Source of the DNA: Microbacterium sp. AZCO
Lineage (GTDB): Bacteria > Actinomycetota > Actinomycetes > Actinomycetales > Microbacteriaceae
NCBI RefSeq assembly: GCF_039614715.1
Contig: NZ_CP154857.1
Location: 1,240,001 to 1,304,000 of the forward strand
DNA length: 64,000 nucleotides
Reading direction: 5' to 3'
Made by a program: the position numbers and the translations under genes
Notes under the pieces: generated by a model
What the model was told of the DNA's origin: nothing
What the model saw: the letters and a program-made list of their open reading frames with translations, nothing else
The model's database searches: none
Part shown: in pieces, positions 33,840-43,818 of the stretch
Numbering within the stretch: position 1 is the stretch's first letter
Layout of the letters: each line of letters begins with the position of its first letter

Positions 33840-35722
<1,883 letters not shown>

Positions 35723-35728
35723 GGAGTC

Positions 35729-35758
35729 AGGGTACACCCCCTGACGGCGAGGGACGAA
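35729..35758 (-). promoter_or_regulatory. Candidate leuA promoter
   Basis: TTCGTC (35758-35753) and TACCCT (35734-35729) are separated by 18 bases. The predicted transcript would begin at the ATG of the leader peptide. Confidence 0.45.
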
Positions 35759-35884
35759 ACCGCTCCGCCCGCCGCGCGGCGGCACAGCGCGCGGGAGGGC
35801 TCTGGCGGAGGGCTCGAAGCGGCGGCTAGGGTGTGGCCAGGCGCCGCGGTGGGGCGACGCCAACCGGGACGCATGGGGGCGACG

Positions 35885-38107
35885 ATGGCTTCCGAAGACG
35901 AGCGCGCGTTCGAAGCGGTGACACTCGCCAACTCGTTCGTCGATCCGCGAGGTCGTGCTGCGATCGTGCAGTGGTTTCCGCAGTCGGTCGTCGACCTCTA
36001 CGACGCCGTCGTGGCGCGGCCCGACTGGCAGTCCGCGACGACGCTCGCGGAGCGCGCCTTCGTCGTGATCTCGGCCCTGCGCGACGATCCGGAGCTCGAG
36101 GCGCGGTATCGCGCAGACGTCGAGGCGGGAGAGCTCGGGTTCGGAGCCGGGGAGGATGCTGAGGTCGATGCGGCGATCGCCGAGGTGGCGTCGTCGCTCG
36201 GGGCCGTGGCCGCGATGGCGCCGGACGACGGCCTGCTCGGCGGGGGCGGCATCGGCGAGTCGTGGTCGCCGGACTCGACGGCGGCGGTACCGGCGGACGA
36301 CGGCCTGCTCGGCGGAGGCGGCATCGGCGAGTCGTGGTCGCCCGAGCCGGGGGCGGCCGAGCCGCCTCCACCACCCCCTCCGCCGGCGCCTGCGCCGTCG
36401 CCTTCGCCCTCCCCTGCGCCGTCGGCTCAGCCGCCGGCGTCCGCCCCGCCGGCCGAGGCGGCTCCTCCCGACGGTGGTGCTGCCCCGCCGACCGGTGCCG
36501 ACGAGCCGAGTGGCGGCGGTGCCGGGTCCGAGGCGCCCGCCGAGACCGTGCAGACGTGGCTCAATGCCGAGGTGCAGGGCGGTGAGCAGAAGCTCGAGGC
36601 GACGCACAGCTACGTGCTGGCGGTGTTCTTCGGCGAGAAGAGCGAGGAGGCTGCCGGAGCGGCTCCCGCCGCCATCCCCTTCGGACTCGGACAGGCCACC
36701 GTCGACCTCTCGGTGCAGCTCGTGAGCAGCGACTTCACGGTGCCGCCGTTTCCGCAGCAGCTGCGCGTGGGCCGGGACGGAGCATCCATCGGGCAAGCGC
36801 TCTTCCCGATCACGCCGCTCCACGACGGGCACTCGACGCTGAGCGTGCTCGTCGACGTGCAGGGCAATTTCCTGCAGCGGCTCGAGCTCGAGTTCGACAT
36901 CGGCACGACGGCGGCGGTCGATGCGACGGCATTCGGACGCCCCGCGGGCGCCGCGGTCGAGCTTCAGCCGCGGACGGCATCCATGCAGTTCATGCCCGCG
37001 ACCGGCGGCTACCAGCTGTTCGTCAAAGGCGTTACCGACGAGCAGGTGTTCGTCCAGCTCACCGACGACGAGCTCGGAGCCCGGATCGAGGGCGTCCGCA
37101 AGGCCCTCCTCGAGACCGTGAAGGACACGACGTTCGCGCTCGAGATGGACATCCCGCCCGACCTCGCGGCGAAGGCGCTGAAGGCGCTCGCCTTCGCCGG
37201 CTTCCGGCTGTACCAGGCGATCTTCAGCGGTCCGTTCGCCTCCGACGAGCTCAAGAAGGTCGGCGCGTGGCTGCGCGAGAGCCTCGCCGACGATGTCACG
37301 ACACTGCAGGTCGTCTCGCGCGGCTTCCCCGTGCCGTGGGCGCTCATGTACCTGACCGACCGGTTCGCCGACGACGAGCTGGACTGGAAGAACTTCATCG
37401 GCATGCGGCACGTCGTGGAGCAGGTGCCGATGCGTGAGATCTCCGCGCTCCCGCCCGCGGCGACCATCACGTCGACTCCGGATCTCAGCGTGCGCGTCCT
37501 GTATCACGACGGCATCGACGCGACCATGCCGTCGCACCCCGTCGCCGCGCAGCGCGCCTACTGGGAGAACCGCGGCGTCACGCTCGGCGAGGGCACGAAG
37601 GTCGACGACCTCGTGCACAGCGCGCTCTCCCCCACAGCGACCGACAAGGTGCTCTACCTCTACTGCCACGCCGTCTCTTCCAACACCGACTCCGACAGCT
37701 CGTATCTCGTCCTGACCGGCGATCAGCAGATCTCGCTCGGACAGCTCGCCGTCTACGCGCCCATCGAGGATCAGCTGCAGAGCCACCCGCTCGTGGTCGT
37801 GAACGCATGCGAGTCCGGCGATCTCTCGCCGGACTTCTACGACGGCTTCGTCCCGTACTTCCTCGCGAAAGGCGCCCGCGGAGTGATCGGCACGGAGTGC
37901 AAGACGCCCGGGCGGTTCGCGAGCGAGTGGGGCATCGCCTTCTTCGACCGGCTGTTCTCGGGCGAACCGCTCGGCGAGGCGGTGCTCGGCCTGCGTCGGG
38001 ACTTCCTCGAGAAGCACGGCAACCCGCTGGGCCTGCTGTACGGCGTCCACTGCGACACCGATACCCGGGTCGACCCCGCCCTCGCCGCTGCGGCGGCCGG
38101 CCACTGA
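35885..38107 (+). CDS. CHAT-domain caspase-like protease with repeated DDGLLGGG motif
   Basis: A 740-residue protein. Residues 1-110 are helical. Residues 114-153 hold two 24-residue-spaced copies of DDGLLGGGGIGESWSP. A Pro/Ala/Ser linker with an eight-proline run follows to about 215, then a beta-sandwich-like region (about 220-330), and the C-terminal third is a CHAT peptidase. The catalytic dyad is present: His595 in YLYCHAVSSN and Cys642 in VVVNACESGD. CHAT proteases belong to clan CD (caspase-like) and usually cleave a partner on a signal. The next gene, 16 bp on, is a hydrolase with the same short motif. The ATG at 35885 is preferred (GGGGG upstream); an ATG at 35873 is in frame. No signal peptide. 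Confidence 0.8.
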   Translation: MASEDERAFEAVTLANSFVDPRGRAAIVQWFPQSVVDLYDAVVARPDWQSATTLAERAFVVISALRDDPELEARYRADVEAGELGFGAGEDAEVDAAIAEVASSLGAVAAMAPDDGLLGGGGIGESWSPDSTAAVPADDGLLGGGGIGESWSPEPGAAEPPPPPPPPAPAPSPSPSPAPSAQPPASAPPAEAAPPDGGAAPPTGADEPSGGGAGSEAPAETVQTWLNAEVQGGEQKLEATHSYVLAVFFGEKSEEAAGAAPAAIPFGLGQATVDLSVQLVSSDFTVPPFPQQLRVGRDGASIGQALFPITPLHDGHSTLSVLVDVQGNFLQRLELEFDIGTTAAVDATAFGRPAGAAVELQPRTASMQFMPATGGYQLFVKGVTDEQVFVQLTDDELGARIEGVRKALLETVKDTTFALEMDIPPDLAAKALKALAFAGFRLYQAIFSGPFASDELKKVGAWLRESLADDVTTLQVVSRGFPVPWALMYLTDRFADDELDWKNFIGMRHVVEQVPMREISALPPAATITSTPDLSVRVLYHDGIDATMPSHPVAAQRAYWENRGVTLGEGTKVDDLVHSALSPTATDKVLYLYCHAVSSNTDSDSSYLVLTGDQQISLGQLAVYAPIEDQLQSHPLVVVNACESGDLSPDFYDGFVPYFLAKGARGVIGTECKTPGRFASEWGIAFFDRLFSGEPLGEAVLGLRRDFLEKHGNPLGLLYGVHCDTDTRVDPALAAAAAGH
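36223..36342 (+). repeat. 48-bp direct repeat, period 72 bp, inside the CHAT gene
   Basis: 36223-36270 and 36295-36342 differ at one base. They encode the two DDGLLGGGGIGESWSP copies. The near identity suggests recent duplication or selection for the exact peptide. Confidence 0.9.
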
Positions 38108-38123
38108 TTCGGAAGGAACTCCC

Positions 38124-39452
38124 ATGGCCCTTCGACGCATCCCCGGGAAGTCGCAGTCGTACCACCTCATCGCCTACGACGGAAAGGGCCGCGAACAGCG
38201 CGACGACGACGGGTCGGTCGCGAGCGACCTCGCGCTCGAGGCCGTTCGCGCGCCCGGCGTGACCGACGTCTTCGTGCTCAGTCACGGCTGGCAGGGCGAC
38301 TACGTCGACGCGATCAGCCAATACGACCGGTGGGTCGGCGCCGGCGATCCCGATCAGGCCGGCGACGGCATCCATCCCCTCGTCATCGGTCTGCACTGGC
38401 CGAGCAAGGCCTGGAGCGACCGGGAGCTCACCGGCGGACCGTCGGGCCTGCTGGGCGACGAGCCGGAGCAGGATGCCGTGACGGTGGATGCAGCCGTCGC
38501 CGAGTTCGCGGACCGCCTCGGGGACGACCCGCAGACTCGCGACGCGCTGCACACGGTGCTCTCGTATGCGGCGTCCATCCCGTCGGATCAGGATGCCACC
38601 GAGGCCGACGCCCTCCCGGGCGACGTCGCCGACGCGTATCAGGTGTTGCTCGCGCGGCTCGGCGCGACGGGTGACGACGGCGGTCTGCTCGGCGGCGGCT
38701 GGGATCCGGACGCCGTCTTCGCCGAGGGGCTTCAGGTCGAGGCGGACGACGGGCTGCTGGGCGACGGCTTCTTCGCCAGACTCCGCGAGGCCGTGCTGCG
38801 GCCGTTGCGGCAGCTGACGTTCTGGAGCGGCAAGAATCACGCCCGCGAGTTCGGCGAGGGCGCCGCAGCGACGCTCGTGAGACGGATTCAGGATGCTGCG
38901 CCCGTGCGCGTGCACCTGATGGGGCACAGCTTCGGCACGATCGTGATGTCCGGGGCCGTGCGCGGCGCGCATGCCACTCCTCCCCCGCGTCCCATCGACT
39001 CGCTCTTCCTCGTGCAGGGGGCGGTGTCGCTGTGGGCGTACGCCGAGTCGGTGCCGCCGGACATCGGCGGCGGACGCGGCTACTTCGCCGATGTCGTGCG
39101 CCCCGAGTTCGTGTCGGGGCCGATCGTCGTGACGCGGTCGAAGTGGGACTACGCCGTGGGCAGGTTCTATCCCCTCGCTGTGCGGGTCGCGGGCCAGTAC
39201 CTGCTGGGCGACGAGCCCCCGAAGTTCGGCGGCATCGGCACGTTCGGCGCTGAGGCGGTGCCGGGCGCCGTCGAGCTCCCCGCCCTGCGGGCGGGTGCCT
39301 TCGAGGACCCGGGCCTCGAGGCGGGGACGCTCTACAACCTCGACGCGAGCGCGGTCATCGCGAAGCTCGACGGCGCGTCGGGTGCGCACAACGACATCGG
39401 GCATCCCGAGCTGACCTGGCTCGCCTGGCACGCGGCCCGGGCCGGGCGCTGA
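38124..39452 (+). CDS. Alpha/beta hydrolase partner of the CHAT protease
   Basis: A 442-residue serine hydrolase of the lipase/esterase fold. The nucleophile elbow is GHSFG with Ser269, the oxyanion loop is probably LSHGWQGD near 53-60, and a late His in NDIGHPEL can complete the triad. A long insertion before the elbow (about 100-220) carries SGLLGDEPE (107-115), DDGGLLGGGWDPD (184-196) and DDGLLGDG (208-215), which echo the DDGLLGGG repeats of the CHAT protein. GGAAGGA precedes the ATG, 16 bp after the CHAT stop codon, so the two form an operon. No signal peptide; substrate unknown. A membrane-lipid target would fit an effector role but is inference. Confidence 0.75.
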   Translation: MALRRIPGKSQSYHLIAYDGKGREQRDDDGSVASDLALEAVRAPGVTDVFVLSHGWQGDYVDAISQYDRWVGAGDPDQAGDGIHPLVIGLHWPSKAWSDRELTGGPSGLLGDEPEQDAVTVDAAVAEFADRLGDDPQTRDALHTVLSYAASIPSDQDATEADALPGDVADAYQVLLARLGATGDDGGLLGGGWDPDAVFAEGLQVEADDGLLGDGFFARLREAVLRPLRQLTFWSGKNHAREFGEGAAATLVRRIQDAAPVRVHLMGHSFGTIVMSGAVRGAHATPPPRPIDSLFLVQGAVSLWAYAESVPPDIGGGRGYFADVVRPEFVSGPIVVTRSKWDYAVGRFYPLAVRVAGQYLLGDEPPKFGGIGTFGAEAVPGAVELPALRAGAFEDPGLEAGTLYNLDASAVIAKLDGASGAHNDIGHPELTWLAWHAARAGR

Positions 39453-39456
39453 CCGC

Positions 39457-39493
39457 GGCGGGGATCAGCTCGCCGAACGGCATCCTCCCCGCC
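39457..39493. terminator. Hairpin between convergent hydrolase and Ig-like genes
   Basis: GGCGGGGA (39457-39464) pairs with TCCCCGCC (39486-39493) across a 21-base loop, in the 48-bp gap between the two stop codons. No U-tract on either side. Confidence 0.4.
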
Positions 39494-39500
39494 GGCCGGC

Positions 39501-41360
39501 TCACGGGGCGGGTGCGATCGGCGGGCCGTCGGCGCTGTCCGAGACCCCGGGCACGTATCCGAGCCGGAGGCCGAAGGTCTTCACGTCGATCCGTGCGCCC
39601 TCATCGGCCGCTACCACGGTGTACCGGCGAGACACCGCCCCGGGTATCGCGACCCCGTCGCGGCGCCACTCGTAGATGACGCTGCCGGGCTCGGGCGACC
39701 AGCCCTCGGTATGCGCGGTCAGCACGCCGCCGACGCTGCGCACACCCGACACCGTGGGCGCGGGAACGACGGCGAAGGTTGCCAGACCGACGCGGGCCGT
39801 CGGCGCGGAGGTGCGCTTCTCGACCGGTGTCGCATCGACCGTCGTCACGCGGAAGGAGATGCGCGCGCCGAGATCGGCGACGCCGACGCGGTAGGTCGCA
39901 CCGACTGCGCCGCTGATGGGCTGTCCGTCCCGCAGCCAGCGGTAGTTCAGTCGTCCGCCCGGCGAGAAGCGTCCGGGGTCGCCCGTGAGCACGGCATCCA
40001 CGACGGGAGTGCCCGTGATGCGGGGGTCGCCGGTCACGACGGTCTCCGTGGGCGGGCCGGTCCGCGTGAGCGGCACGTAGCCGTCCTTCGATCCGGTCAC
40101 CTGTGCAGCGAGCCGATATCCCACGTCCGCGGCCTGCACTAGGTAGGTGACGGACGTCGCATCGGGGATCGGCGTCGATCCCCGCAGCCACTGGTAGCTC
40201 AGCTGAACAGGTGCAGGGCCCCACACCCCTGGCTCTACGGTGAGGTACGCGCCGACAACGGCCTCGCCCGAATAGCCGATCGGCGTGGACAGCGTCACGT
40301 ACTTCAGCTGCGGCTCTTCAGCGGATCCGCACACCGGGTCGTCGATCGTCCGGAGGTTGTCGAGCAGCACGACGGAGTCGGCGGCCTCGTCGCCGATGTC
40401 CTGGATCGACACGACCACATCGGTCGAACCGGCGCCCAGCGGGATCAGGGCAGTCAGCTTCGGAGACCACCGGTCGATGCCGTTCCCCGGAATGGGGGCG
40501 AGGTCTTGACTGTCGGCATTCAGCTGCTGGCCATGGGAGTCGAAGGCCCGGTTATGAGGAGCGATGACGTGCTCGTGGTCATCCGCGATCGACAGCTGCG
40601 ACGTCGGCGACTCGATCGTGAGCACGTCCTTCGTATAGGTGCCGGCCTTCTCCTCGGTGGCGAAGGCGTAGTCGAGCGCGAGGCACGTCGAGGCTCCCGG
40701 CGGGTCGAACGAGACGGTGATCGTGCTCATATCCCAGCCTCCGACGCCCTGAGGGGCCGTCTCGAGGCCCGTCGAGATCGCCCCTCCCGTTCCCGGCGGG
40801 AGGGTGCGCAGCGCGTCTCCGGCGCGTCCGGTCGACAGTACGACGTAGCTCGAGCCGGCCGTCGGGAACCCGTCGATCAGGGCGCTTCCGACGGTCACGG
40901 CCTCGGGGGCGAACCGGCCGGTGATGGTCGTCGTGGCGTCGGCGTCCATCGCCTCGAGCAGACCGTCGAAGGAGATCACCTGGAAATACCGGCTGTTCGC
41001 GGTGTAGTCGGGATACCCCGCCTTGTGCGCCGTCACGGCAACCCGGTAGATCGCGTCGTCGCTGGGGCTCGCATCCACGGGCAGTGTGTACGTCTGGCTC
41101 GTGGCACCGCTGATCGGTCCGGGTCGCTCCCATTGGTAGGTGAGCGAGTCCGGCGTCGGCACCCACGAGCCCGGGTCTGCCGTCATCGTCGATCCCGCGG
41201 TCGGGGTGCCCGCGACAGTCGGTTGTCCGACCGTCTGCCAGAAGACTGCCGCAGTGTCGTCCGTGCTCTTGACTGCGGCGCCCGCCGGAGCAGCGGATGC
41301 CAGGGCGAGTGCGAGGACGACCGCGGAGACCAGAAAGCTGAAGACACGACCGAGGAACAT
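39501..41360 (-). CDS. Secreted multi-domain Ig-like protein with choice-of-anchor L-like domain
   Basis: A 619-residue exported protein. Residues 1-29 are a signal peptide ending at AGAA. One Ig-like unit follows (about 45-128). A domain at about 140-330 contains LDYAFATEEKAG and VSIQDIGDEAADSVVLLDNL, like choice-of-anchor L domains. Three further Ig-like units end the protein (about 343-430, 438-525, 533-619), each with the pattern GxW-P-YQWLR-G-IP-A-YxV-DxG. There is no LPXTG or terminal membrane helix, so it is probably released or held non-covalently. AAGGAG supports the ATG. It is convergent with the CHAT unit; the 171 bp upstream towards era hold no gene. Confidence 0.8.
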   Translation of the reverse strand: MFLGRVFSFLVSAVVLALALASAAPAGAAVKSTDDTAAVFWQTVGQPTVAGTPTAGSTMTADPGSWVPTPDSLTYQWERPGPISGATSQTYTLPVDASPSDDAIYRVAVTAHKAGYPDYTANSRYFQVISFDGLLEAMDADATTTITGRFAPEAVTVGSALIDGFPTAGSSYVVLSTGRAGDALRTLPPGTGGAISTGLETAPQGVGGWDMSTITVSFDPPGASTCLALDYAFATEEKAGTYTKDVLTIESPTSQLSIADDHEHVIAPHNRAFDSHGQQLNADSQDLAPIPGNGIDRWSPKLTALIPLGAGSTDVVVSIQDIGDEAADSVVLLDNLRTIDDPVCGSAEEPQLKYVTLSTPIGYSGEAVVGAYLTVEPGVWGPAPVQLSYQWLRGSTPIPDATSVTYLVQAADVGYRLAAQVTGSKDGYVPLTRTGPPTETVVTGDPRITGTPVVDAVLTGDPGRFSPGGRLNYRWLRDGQPISGAVGATYRVGVADLGARISFRVTTVDATPVEKRTSAPTARVGLATFAVVPAPTVSGVRSVGGVLTAHTEGWSPEPGSVIYEWRRDGVAIPGAVSRRYTVVAADEGARIDVKTFGLRLGYVPGVSDSADGPPIAPAP

Positions 41361-41531
41361 GGTGGCTCCTTGACGAGCGCGGCTGCGATCTCGCAACCGC
41401 GACCCACGGTAGCGGAGTCGAGCGTTCGAGGCACCCGATCCGGCGCCTCCTATAACGTGGCGCCGGCGTCGGGAAGCGAGGCCCTGCCCTCGTCGACGGC
41501 TGCCGTCACGAGGCCCGGTCTCGAAGCAAGG

Positions 41532-42428
41532 TCAGAAGCCGAGGCGGCCGAGCTGCTTCGGGTCGCGCTGCCACTCCTTCGCCACACGCACGTGCAGCTT
41601 CAGGAAGACCTTCGTGCCGATCAGGGGCTCGATCTGCTCGCGCGCGCGGGCGCCGACATCGCGCAGGCGTGATCCCTTGCGCCCGATGATGATCGCCTTC
41701 TGGCTGTCGCGTTCGACGACGATGTTCGCGTAGACGTCGGTGAGCGAACCGGTCTCGCGCTCCTCGATGTCTTCGATCGTCACAGCGATCGAGTGCGGCA
41801 GCTCGTCGCGCACGCCGTCGAGGGCCGACTCCCGGATGATCTCGGCGATGCGGTCCTCGAGCGACTCGTCGGTGACGACGCCTTCGGGATACAGCGCAGG
41901 TCCGGTCGGCATGAGCGCGAGGAGCTCGTCGGTGAGCACGTCGAGCTGCTCGGCCGTGAGCGCCGACAGCGGGATGACGGCGGCCCAGTCCTCGCGCAGG
42001 CTGTCGACCTCGACGAGGCGCTCCGTGATCTGGTCGCGGGCCGCGGCATCCGTCTTCGTCACGATCGCGACCTTCTTGGCGCGCGGATAGCCGGAGAGCG
42101 ACTCGGCGATGCGGCGATCGCCGGGACCGACCTTCTCGGTCGCCGGCACGCAGAATCCGATGACGTCGACATCGCCCAGCACCTGCTCGACGAGGTCGTT
42201 GAGGCGCTGACCGAGCAGTGTCCGGGGCTTGTGGAGACCGGGGGTGTCGACGATGACGAGCTGGCCGGCGGGGCGATTCAGGATGCCGCGGATCGCGCGC
42301 CGGGTCGTCTGCGGCTTGTCGCTCGTGATGGCGACCTTCTCGCCGACGAGCGCGTTCGTGAGCGTCGACTTGCCGACGTTGGGGCGCCCCACGAATGTGA
42401 CGAAGCCGGAGCGGTGTTCCTCAGCCAT
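41532..42428 (-). CDS. era: GTPase Era
   Basis: Ribosome-assembly GTPase that binds the 3' end of 16S rRNA. The 298 residues have the P-loop GRPNVGKST (14-22), the DTPGLHKPR switch, TKTD as the base-recognition motif, and the C-terminal KH domain with AIIIGRKGSRLRDVG. It is the last gene of the chain lepA...era and overlaps the preceding CBS protein by 8 bp. Together with ybeY and the phoH family it forms a conserved ribosome-maturation cluster. Confidence 0.96.
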   Translation of the reverse strand: MAEEHRSGFVTFVGRPNVGKSTLTNALVGEKVAITSDKPQTTRRAIRGILNRPAGQLVIVDTPGLHKPRTLLGQRLNDLVEQVLGDVDVIGFCVPATEKVGPGDRRIAESLSGYPRAKKVAIVTKTDAAARDQITERLVEVDSLREDWAAVIPLSALTAEQLDVLTDELLALMPTGPALYPEGVVTDESLEDRIAEIIRESALDGVRDELPHSIAVTIEDIEERETGSLTDVYANIVVERDSQKAIIIGRKGSRLRDVGARAREQIEPLIGTKVFLKLHVRVAKEWQRDPKQLGRLGF

Positions 42429-43818
42429 TGCGTTCCTTCTTGGTCTTCGTCTTCGTCTCACCCGTCGTCGGGGGGACGATCCTGATCGGCTCGGTGCGCG
42501 GCCTCGAGAGGTTGACCTCCGCTGTCCGGGGGCGACCTCCGAACGCCTCATCCGCCGACTCCAGCGTCTCGGAGCGCTCGACGAACACACTGGCGAGCCC
42601 GCGTCCGCGTCCGCGCGAGGCGCCGCCGGTCATGACGAGACCCGCGTACTCCGCCGTCGCACCCGGCTGGGGCACTCGTCCGAGCGCCTTGCCGAGCAGG
42701 CCCCCGATCGAGTCCACGTCCTCGTCGTCGAGCTCGATCCCGAAGAGGTCGCCCACTTCGTCGAGCCCGAGCCGCGCACTGACCCGGAAGCGGCCGGGCT
42801 CGAGCTCGACCGCCTCCTCGGCGCGCGGGTCGTACTCGTCGGCGATCTCGCCCACGAGCTCCTCGATGAGATCCTCGAGCGTCACGAGCCCCGAGATGCC
42901 GCCGTACTCGTCGACCACGAGGCACACGTGAACGGCATCCCGCTTCATCTGCTGCAGCAGCGTCTCGGCCTTCATCGACTCGGGCACGAAGACGGCGCGG
43001 CGCGTGATGCGGTTGATCGGGGCATCCCGCCATCCGGTTTCGTCGCGGAACCCGAACTGGACGAGGTCCTTGAGGTACAGCATCCCGACCACGTCGTCGG
43101 CGTCGTCGTCGACGACCGGGATGCGCGAGACCCCCTTGTCGAGGAAGATCGCCATCGCGGCGCGCGTCGTGGCCGCGGCATCCACCGTCACCATGTCGGT
43201 GCGCGGCACCATGACCTCGCGCACGATCGTGTCGGTGAATTCGAACACCGAGTGGATGAGCTCGCGGTCGTCCTCCTCGATGAGGTCCTGCGACGCCGCC
43301 TCGTCGACCATGTCGAGGAGCTGCTCCTCGCTGGCGAACGACGCGCCGCGCGCGACGCCGGGTGTCACGCGTGCGCCGAGGGCCACGAGCCCGTGCGCGA
43401 GCGGGCCGAGGATGAGCCGGACGCCGCGGATGATGGGCGCCGTCCCCGCGAGGAGGCGCTTGGCGTGCTGCCGGCCCCACGTCCGCGGGCTCGCGCCGAC
43501 GATGACGAACGAGATGCCGGTCATGATGACGGCGGCGGCGAGCATAGCCCACCAGATGCTGTCGAACAGCAGCGTGAAGGCGACCGTGACGAGCACCGCG
43601 GCCGTCGTCTCCGCGAGGACCCGGATGAAGACGACGGCGTTCGAATGCACTTCGGGGTCGTCCGAGATCTTGCGCAGCGCCTGGGCGTTGCGGCCCCCGA
43701 GGGCGAGTTCGTAGAGACCCTGCCGCGACGTCACGGCGAGTGCCGCATCGATCGCGGCCATGAGACCGCCGAACACGACGAGCAGGACGGCGGCGACGAG
43801 CAGCAGAGCCGGCGTCAT
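42421..43818 (-). CDS. Hemolysin-like CNNM/CBS/CorC_HlyC membrane protein
   Basis: A 465-residue protein. The N-terminal CNNM (DUF21) membrane domain has four helices, followed by a pair of CBS domains (REVMVPRTDMVTVDA and CLVVDEYGGISGLVTLEDL). A CorC_HlyC domain comes next, and the tail is basic and Lys/Thr-rich (TKTKTKKERNG). Relatives transport or sense Mg2+/Co2+; the hemolysin name is historical. Its ATG overlaps the ybeY stop codon and its end overlaps era, so it is firmly within the operon. Confidence 0.92.
   Translation of the reverse strand: MTPALLLVAAVLLVVFGGLMAAIDAALAVTSRQGLYELALGGRNAQALRKISDDPEVHSNAVVFIRVLAETTAAVLVTVAFTLLFDSIWWAMLAAAVIMTGISFVIVGASPRTWGRQHAKRLLAGTAPIIRGVRLILGPLAHGLVALGARVTPGVARGASFASEEQLLDMVDEAASQDLIEEDDRELIHSVFEFTDTIVREVMVPRTDMVTVDAAATTRAAMAIFLDKGVSRIPVVDDDADDVVGMLYLKDLVQFGFRDETGWRDAPINRITRRAVFVPESMKAETLLQQMKRDAVHVCLVVDEYGGISGLVTLEDLIEELVGEIADEYDPRAEEAVELEPGRFRVSARLGLDEVGDLFGIELDDEDVDSIGGLLGKALGRVPQPGATAEYAGLVMTGGASRGRGRGLASVFVERSETLESADEAFGGRPRTAEVNLSRPRTEPIRIVPPTTGETKTKTKKERNG

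Follow-up and report, generated by a model that had tools for sequence, protein, structure and literature searches.

The DNA analysed here, a window of 64,000 nucleotides from Microbacterium sp. AZCO, contains two adjacent genes, for a CHAT protease and an alpha/beta-hydrolase, whose products carry the same short Leu-Leu-Gly motif. What would a protease and its neighbor share such a motif for? The answer that we favor, somewhat better than an even bet given the sequences and predicted structures, is a two-gene, protease-gated zymogen: a clan CD partner would cut the cap out of the hydrolase, at sites that would change with the protease, and the unit would probably serve in immunity.

The CHAT gene (35,885..38,107, plus strand, ATG at 35,885) encodes 740 residues. 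The Pfam CHAT domain (PF12770) matches residues 577-709 (E 2.4e-11, 44 bits, cutoff 24), and His595 and Cys642 are invariant in 66/66 aligned CHAT sequences, the window protein included. By domain and His-Cys dyad, the protein is a member of the clan CD CHAT proteases, for which proteolysis is predicted. Its AF2 model (mean pLDDT 86.2) consists of a helical N-terminal domain (residues 1-111), a low-confidence linker (112-218), a beta-sandwich (220-351) and the CHAT fold, which extends to the C-terminus; the best Foldseek matches of this model are Csx29/TPR-CHAT (E 3e-9, TM about 0.32). The linker, with pLDDT below 50 at residues 115-160, is probably disordered to judge from the model. It contains DDGLLGGGGIGESWSP at residues 114-129 (36,224..36,271, plus strand; predicted bond L118-G119) and again at residues 138-153 (36,296..36,343, plus strand; predicted bond L142-G143), where autocleavage might occur. 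A preliminary description of the locus had pointed to both copies; they are present, but not independent, because both stem from one 72-bp tandem duplication.

The hydrolase gene (38,124..39,452, plus strand) begins with an ATG 16 bp past the CHAT stop codon and encodes 442 residues. The GHSFG elbow and the model identify the candidate effector as an alpha/beta-hydrolase, and the features of a lipase-like member of this class are all found: the fold, Ser269 in a GxSxG elbow, and the conserved Asp342 and His422. The GHS269FG elbow is kept in 99-100% of 149 hydrolase sequences. A sequence search of solved structures with the hydrolase profile found no relative, and a scan for promoters and terminators gave nothing useful. 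Translation, which was also used to check the motif positions in both genes, together with Pfam and alignments bore out the two reading frames, the dyad, Ser269, the 16-bp spacing and the LLG motifs of the preliminary description.

In the hydrolase, two conserved copies of the motif, L109-L110-G111 and L211-L212-G213, flank a helical segment of about 100 residues. The first copy (site 1, SGLLGDEP, residues 107-114, 38,442..38,465, plus strand) has its predicted bond at L110-G111, and the second (site 3, DDGLLGDG, residues 208-215, 38,745..38,768, plus strand) at L212-G213. The putative removable cap thus spans residues 111-212 (38,454..38,759, plus strand), and in the AF2 model four helices (121-132, 136-151, 166-179 and 195-204) separate the two sites. 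An extra copy (site 2, DDGGLLGGGWDPD, residues 184-196, 38,673..38,711, plus strand) occurs mainly in Microbacterium-type hydrolases. Sites 2 and 3 have low confidence, with pLDDT below 50 at residues 206-216, and site 1 may be partly ordered, since its pLDDT is fair (76-79). Remote homologues (L104, L105 and L108) lack the segment equivalent to the cap or have it strongly shortened. In the alignment of 149 hydrolases, Leu occupies position 110 in 94% and position 212 in 95%, and Gly position 213 in 93%; positions just beyond the motifs are mostly conserved at 13-42%.

A back-translated pattern with up to two mismatches matched the window six times, four times inside the CHAT and hydrolase genes, versus 0.04 expected. 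The pattern DDG(L/F)(L/F)G has five exact matches in the whole 4.23-Mb genome, three of them in these two genes. The other two were considered as a third host protein with DDGLLG and set aside as chance; they fall in reading frames that resemble, by eye, an inositol-monophosphatase type protein and EtfB. The motif also recurs in orthologous proteases: a strict linker motif is present in 35/46 linkers of hydrolase-CHAT fusions (1.4 in shuffles) and in 52/79 linkers of split CHAT proteins (2.9 in shuffles; 27/79 are without it), 16 of 95 split linkers having been left out beforehand as shorter than 20 residues.

Two homologue searches gave 1040 and 179 matches, of which the analysis covered the 120 listed in each case. 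The hydrolase family occurs in Actinomycetota, Pseudomonadota, Cyanobacteriota, Acidobacteriota and others. The counts cover 83 hydrolase loci, a remote homologue locus (L004) having been dropped beforehand. A protein of the same CHAT family as the window protein is adjacent or fused to the hydrolase at 22 loci (the CHAT class), and a Peptidase C25-type (gingipain-family) protein takes its place at 53 (the C25 class). Because these classes are two deep clades in the hydrolase tree, the exchange of LL for SF amounts to about one event and a caspase exchange to a second, and the counts, made with motif expressions written after viewing the sequences, are not independent: in the CHAT class, LL(G/S/A) stands at site 1 in 20 loci, at site 3 in 20 and at both in 18 (mean of loop shuffles, 2.3 and 3.5), and in the C25 class LL stands at site 1 in none, at site 3 in four and at both in none. 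The C25 class has instead (F/Y)(G/A/S/D), at site 1 in 51 loci, at site 3 in 49 and at both in 47, although this SF pattern is loose, with shuffles giving 15.1 and 25.3 of 53, and also fits CHAT-class loci (8/22 at site 3, 1/22 at site 1). In both site types, a small residue follows a hydrophobic one. LL occupies the site 2 columns in 5/22 CHAT-class loci.

All 12 CHAT-hydrolase gene pairs are adjacent reading frames within 46 bp of each other or overlapping, and the 10 further CHAT-class loci are fusions; the co-occurrence of the two genes expected from the preliminary description is therefore found, as is the motif in orthologous pairs. A C25 reading frame lies at most 300 bp from the hydrolase in 44/53 C25-class loci. 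CHAT and C25 partners occur together in 0/83 loci within the DNA examined round each, and a C25 query that matched 5/8 other genomes found nothing in 18 genomes of the CHAT type, which contain 18 of the 22 loci. Site 1 has been lost in a cyanobacterial clade whose partner is caspase-STAND, and most members of this clade have neither LL-G nor SF-G (here and below, the hyphen marks the predicted cut). In three of four genomes of the clade C25 is encoded at another place, and the surrounding DNA examined there contains no hydrolase of the same family. Locus L040 retains the aromatic motif at site 3, and C25 was found neither in the locus nor in its genome. Taken at face value, the sequences suggest that the hydrolase family swapped its protease partner at least once or twice, with the site motifs altering alongside. 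The rule that a C25 partner mostly goes with the other motif at both sites appears to make a stronger case than the preliminary model, beyond which it goes.

The C25 proteins carry no SF motif of their own, the count in 52 proteins being 24, below the 38 expected, so C25 self-processing would not be general. Separately, a gingipain-family C25 protease was observed to sit with CHAT and STAND proteins. Among the 149 aligned hydrolases, LL is missing from both sites in eight, namely P0079 and the seven members of the P0104 group. In genomes, this group is matched most closely by CHAT fusions (60-62%), and searches for close matches in plasmids, viral contigs, 399 genomes of one order and 369 of one class returned only known fusions; a plasmid search with P0216 gave nothing close. 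Two short CHAT proteins, P0222 and P0234, were considered as partners of the motif-less hydrolases and rejected, as they share 78 and 87% identity with the CHAT part of the fusion P0207 and are probably fragments.

By sequence comparison, the core common to both proteins is (G)(L/V)L-(G/S), narrower than the preliminary description had it. That account had extended the motif to W-x-P(D/E) and likened LLGG to LxGG protease sites, and neither extension survived. Hydrolase residues 193-195 are (F/W/L)(D/N)(P/A) in nearly all loci, P195 is present in 17/22, 46/53 and 8/8 loci by class, and WDP is a helix-cap position retained in all classes; in the proteases, W-x-P occurs within 16 residues after GLLG in 24/51 split CHAT linkers and 0/31 fused linkers. 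As for LxGG, site 1 has D, A, G or E directly behind the third motif position, and in 13/33 fusions site 1 is VLS. What stood was the protease-hydrolase unit itself, with a motif kept in both partners where the protease could release something.

From the computed motif, its positions and conservation, its dependence on the partner and the predicted fold, we infer cleavage at particular bonds, activation, a lipid substrate and a role in immunity, as follows. The hydrolase would be produced as a zymogen, with the helical cap preceding the Ser269 elbow. Once triggered, the CHAT protease would cut (L/V)L-(G/S) behind its second Leu, at sites 1 and 3, and in Microbacterium-type members at site 2 as well. 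The double cut would release the cap and expose the lipase-type active site. At its linker motif the CHAT protein may process itself, which would release the catalytic part from a sensor or adaptor domain; in natural hydrolase-CHAT fusions, self-processing at the linker motif may separate CHAT from the hydrolase. Once free, the hydrolase would harm the cell in a suicidal act of defence, with lipids as the most likely target. The sites would follow the protease, LL-G with CHAT, SF-G with C25 and, in most cases, neither with caspase-STAND. The broader generalization, that a single lipase-like zymogen family has two fixed points of lid excision whose cut sites were rewritten for each clan CD protease (LL-G for CHAT, SF-G for C25, another for caspase-nSTAND1), is more tentative, and we place it a little short of an even chance.

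Rather than serving in immunity, the unit could be a housekeeping or developmental proteolytic switch, such as one for envelope lipid remodelling, an alternative that bears on the role and leaves room for cleavage. By Pfam, the five genes scanned on the flanks are leuA, era, recO, uppS and one with a weak Ig-like domain, with no defence gene among them, and at E 0.001 PADLOC matched neither of the window proteins, all of which would suit such a switch. Yet presence is patchy, at 4/98 relatives (a count that takes in the genome analysed here and one remote match) and 7/299 in the family (five of them remote), and the leuA-era interval is variable. The partner proteins of relatives, moreover, carry immune-type sensor domains: SEFIR, NNH1 and a NACHT-type NTPase, or Trypco2, and in further cases nSTAND1-WD40 and SIR2, or caspase and nSTAND1. 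We therefore regard a housekeeping switch as unlikely, and an immune role, judged from this architecture, as plausible.

A second reading dispenses with cleavage and treats LLG as a docking motif that binds CHAT or another domain and keeps hydrolase and protease joined or inhibited. Shortness, a location mostly within low-confidence segments and occurrence in both partners would all suit such a motif, and fusions do hold the partners together. Mere binding, however, would not require a copy at each border of the cap, which is absent from remote homologues; in fusions the motif also lies between the two enzymes, and in the C25 class the same two borders are occupied by another motif, again hydrophobic-small. 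Docking accordingly seems to us unlikely. Hydrophobic lids are frequent in lipases, and the motifs could be plugs that seat the cap loops in the active site, for folding or substrate mimicry, with linker copies as by-products of Gly/Ala-rich sequence, as the fair model confidence at site 1 and the C25 proteins without an SF copy would allow, but this is quite improbable, given that within one enzyme family the partner goes with the choice of LL or SF at the two sites and that fused-linker copies far exceed shuffles, though the window linker has no confident fold.

The proposed protease-gated excision of the cap has several known counterparts. Like Csx29/TPR-CHAT of the type III-E CRISPR system (Craspase), the closest solved fold, the window protein would be a CHAT protease with another protein as its target. 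Csx30 is the substrate of Csx29; here the predicted substrate is the hydrolase. The window protein gave no TPR match in a Pfam scan, and its model has a short N-terminal helical domain, the linker and the beta-sandwich instead. Among nuclease-protease pairs, HamM-HamA, AVAST and Canu have the gene of an effector proenzyme adjoining that of its protease, as proposed here, and several protease families (there trypsin and caspase) go with one effector family (PMC12799240). HamM becomes active when cut twice, behind I118 and behind I218; the cuts fall in insertions apparently blocking its active site, and the two conserved sites, like the predicted L110 and L212, are about 100 residues apart (PMC12799240). 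The effector in those systems is an MBL-fold nuclease rather than an alpha/beta-hydrolase, the proteases here are of CHAT, C25 or C14-STAND type, and cleavage and phage defence, shown in those systems (PMC12799240), are predictions here.

For the VMAP ternary conflict systems, comparative genomics found the caspase-superfamily domain of the VMAP to have an alpha/beta-hydrolase neighbor in every case, and joint action was suggested (Kaur et al. 2020, PMC7159879). The main text of that paper does not contain the words CHAT, C25 or gingipain, and its passages on these systems do not mention cut sites. These systems include MoxR ATPase, vWA and VMAP proteins; a Pfam scan of five flanking window genes gave no match to MoxR or vWA. 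According to a commentary on bacterial gasdermins (PMC9079055), a caspase-like protease cuts the Runella gasdermin behind the P1 residue L247, with glycine at P1'. Like the bonds predicted here, this is a Leu-Gly bond in a loop, where the cut removes an inhibitory C-terminal part; the gasdermin, however, is a pore-former cut once, and the hydrolase an enzyme with two predicted cuts (PMC9079055). A literature search found no paper describing such a motif exchange, which is not proof of absence, as subscription journals were mostly outside its scope.

If the proposed mechanism is true, the principle of the protease-gated effector, lately shown for nucleases, would reach a lipase-like enzyme and three types of clan CD protease. 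The exact scissile bonds of the CHAT and C25 proteases of this group would be predictable from sequence alone, and motif swaps at two fixed loops could be a readout of protease specificity across uncharacterised conflict systems. On the broader generalization, C25 proteases would gain an immune role, and the family would preserve in nature the joint evolution of protease specificity and substrate within bacterial immunity.

The CHAT protease gene (35885-38107, plus strand) and the alpha/beta-hydrolase gene (38124-39452, plus strand) are separated by 16 bp on the same strand, and every motif listed for them in the preliminary description was found in the two proteins. CHAT was the sole Pfam match of the protease, and the lipase-like hydrolase had nothing above cutoff; among the matches listed, the closest named homologues were from Microbacterium. 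Pfam analysis of five flanking genes returned leuA, era, recO, uppS and a weak Ig-like domain. A neighboring protein outside the unit (39501-41396, minus strand) had an AIR9 Ig match only, below cutoff. The leuA and era genes were near each other in all 8 relatives compared, and the interval between them (33840-42590 in the window; loci L125-L132) varied among related genomes. In two of these (G012 and G008), 0.8-0.9 kb lay between the leuA and era matches, and no ORF of at least 100 amino acids was found there with the filter used. In G010 and G011, the interval contained the gene pair, as in the window's own genome (G000), plus additional DNA, and the remaining relatives had different DNA at this position. 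The pair was matched in 4 of 98 relatives (including its own genome and one remote match) and, across the family, in 7 of 299 genomes (including its own genome and five remote ones). Given this variable interval and sparse presence, the pair is accessory.

The hydrolase has a Leu-Leu-Gly motif on either side of a putative cap (residues 111-212), at sites 1 (L109-L110-G111) and 3 (L211-L212-G213). In an alignment of 149 hydrolases, counting the hydrolase halves of hydrolase-CHAT fusions, L110 was Leu in 94%, L212 was Leu in 95% and G213 was Gly in 93%; G111 was Gly in 56% and Ser in many others, and conservation immediately outside the motifs was mostly 13-42%. Residue tables, built on 121 (site 1) and 109 (site 3) distinct sequences, defined the core as (G)(L/V)L(G/S) and placed it in 134 and 135 of the 149 proteins, respectively. 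Counted by alignment columns, the motif occurred in 133 and 139, and eight proteins (P0079, P0104, P0108-P0111, P0118 and P0119) lacked LL at both sites. For the seven of the P0104 group, no genomic context was found in plasmids, viral contigs, 399 genomes of one order or 369 of one class. An earlier suggestion that the motif resembles LxGG protease sites can be set aside, because the residue following the core is unconstrained. The strict core pattern was also present in 52 of 79 linkers of split CHAT proteins (vs 2.9 in shuffles) and in 35 of 46 fusion linkers (vs 1.4), with some near-copies among the rows. A looser pattern, used without a shuffle control in 33 fusions, was found at site 1 in 31, at site 3 in 31 and in the linker region in all 33. 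Many CHAT orthologues (P0127, P0132, P0155 and others) have AGLLGFGAGED or a similar stretch ending the helical N-domain at about residue 80, where the window protein has GELGFGAGED instead; this stretch may be one more site or a structural loop.

Named genomes were searched with a profile, which yielded 141 loci. The best 80 of these and three from relatives, with the remote locus L004 removed, gave 83 hydrolases, which were classed by the partner gene in the surrounding DNA. Twenty-two loci had a window-type CHAT partner (10 fusions and 12 with a CHAT ORF overlapping or at most 46 bp away), 53 had a homologue of a Peptidase_C25 protein (identified by Pfam on two proteins), 8 were unclassed, and none of the 83 had both partners. 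The C25 ORF lay within 300 bp of the hydrolase in 44 of the 53 loci and shared its strand in 52; the C25 His and Cys were invariant in the 52 better-scoring proteins. By similarity, 42 of the 53 also matched the CHAT or STAND part of a large protein of locus L019, the matches in L071 being CHAT-SIR2 and nSTAND1-WD40 proteins. CHAT proteins in C25 loci belong to another family than the window CHAT. The C25-class operons at L019:9350-16471 and L071:2207-10777 combine Peptidase_C25 with CHAT-STAND, CHAT-SIR2 and nSTAND1-WD40 proteins; PADLOC had no match to the L019 C25 protein at E 0.001.

The motif type followed the partner. Among CHAT-class hydrolases, 20/22 had LL(G/S/A) at site 1, 20/22 at site 3 and 18/22 at both (2.3 and 3.5 of 22 in shuffled loops at sites 1 and 3); the corresponding C25-class figures were 0/53, 4/53 and 0/53. 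The C25 class carried an aromatic motif (VSFD, ASFA, GSFG etc.) at site 1 in 51/53, at site 3 in 49/53 and at both in 47/53. The aromatic pattern is loose, matching 15.1 and 25.3 of 53 shuffled loops at the two sites as well as 1/22 and 8/22 CHAT-class hydrolases, and both patterns were composed after the sequences were inspected. L139, a locus from a later genome outside the count, fits the rule: C25 adjoins a hydrolase with VSFA at site 1 and ISFG at site 3. Since CHAT and C25 hydrolases fall into two clades that part deep in the tree (midpoint root, support 99), the main partner exchange counts about once; the weight of the rule is that each motif is held at two separate loops across a large divergence.

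Among unclassed loci, four cyanobacterial hydrolases point to a further partner exchange, nested within the first: they formed one clade inside the C25 side (support 100), with the aromatic motif missing at site 1 in 4/4 and at site 3 in 3/4. In three (L028, L030 and L031), a Peptidase_C14-nSTAND1 protein, by eye running on into WD40-like repeats, is encoded directly 3' of the hydrolase; the fourth (L020) stops at a contig end. A C25 gene occurred elsewhere in three of the four genomes, once near a contig end, and no family hydrolase was found in the 11-12 kb of DNA spanning each of these genes. L032 and L045 have a contig end beside the hydrolase, the aromatic motif at both sites and C25 elsewhere in the genome. 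L047 is frameshifted, groups with the CHAT class in the tree and has neither motif type and neither partner. L040 keeps the aromatic motif at site 3, and C25 was not found in its genome; this locus counts against a strict partner rule and, with the aromatic matches within the CHAT class, slightly lowers our confidence in the main reading.

The simplest reading of the motifs is that they are proteolysis sites. In both types a small residue comes after a hydrophobic one, and a caspase-like protease is described as cutting Runella gasdermin between Leu247 and a P1' Gly (PMC9079055). HamM reportedly becomes active when its gating insertions are cut at two places, and defence by Canu is abolished by mutation of either predicted site (PMC12799240). 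By analogy, the cap would be excised and the N- and C-terminal hydrolase parts would remain associated as the active enzyme. Motif copies in the CHAT linker may serve self-processing, a step that is not general, as C25 proteins have no motif copies. Overall, we lean toward a gated zymogen whose cap is cut out at the LL sites by the CHAT partner, probably in immunity.

We infer the immune role from sensor-like partners of relatives, which carry SEFIR, NNH1, a NACHT-type NTPase, Trypco2, nSTAND1-WD40 and SIR2. At L026:4087-8004, immediately 5' of the hydrolase, a window-family CHAT is fused to SEFIR, NNH1 and the NTPase (NPHP3_N above cutoff, NACHT below); Trypco2 is found on the L010 partner, and L071 partners have nSTAND1-WD40 and a SIR2 with a ThsA-like match. 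The L026 fusion has the layout of an NLR-like receptor with the protease as output, and a second window-family CHAT lies on the opposite strand. At L081:5907-7985 (Microbacterium fluvii), the CHAT gene occupies two overlapping frames and looks frameshifted, with the hydrolase intact. In P0189, a window-family CHAT protein, a chitinase-type domain (glycoside hydrolase 19) occupies the N-terminus. Several hydrolases (P0017, P0029, P0030 and others) bear the UniRef name "Serine-threonine protein kinase", apparently a misannotation.

Pairing of caspases with alpha/beta-hydrolases in conflict systems was already noted in 2020 (PMC7159879), and dual-site gating was demonstrated for nucleases in 2025 (PMC12799240). 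New here are a lipase-like putative zymogen with two predicted sites, natural hydrolase-CHAT fusions carrying a linker site, and a motif that changes with the partner protease.
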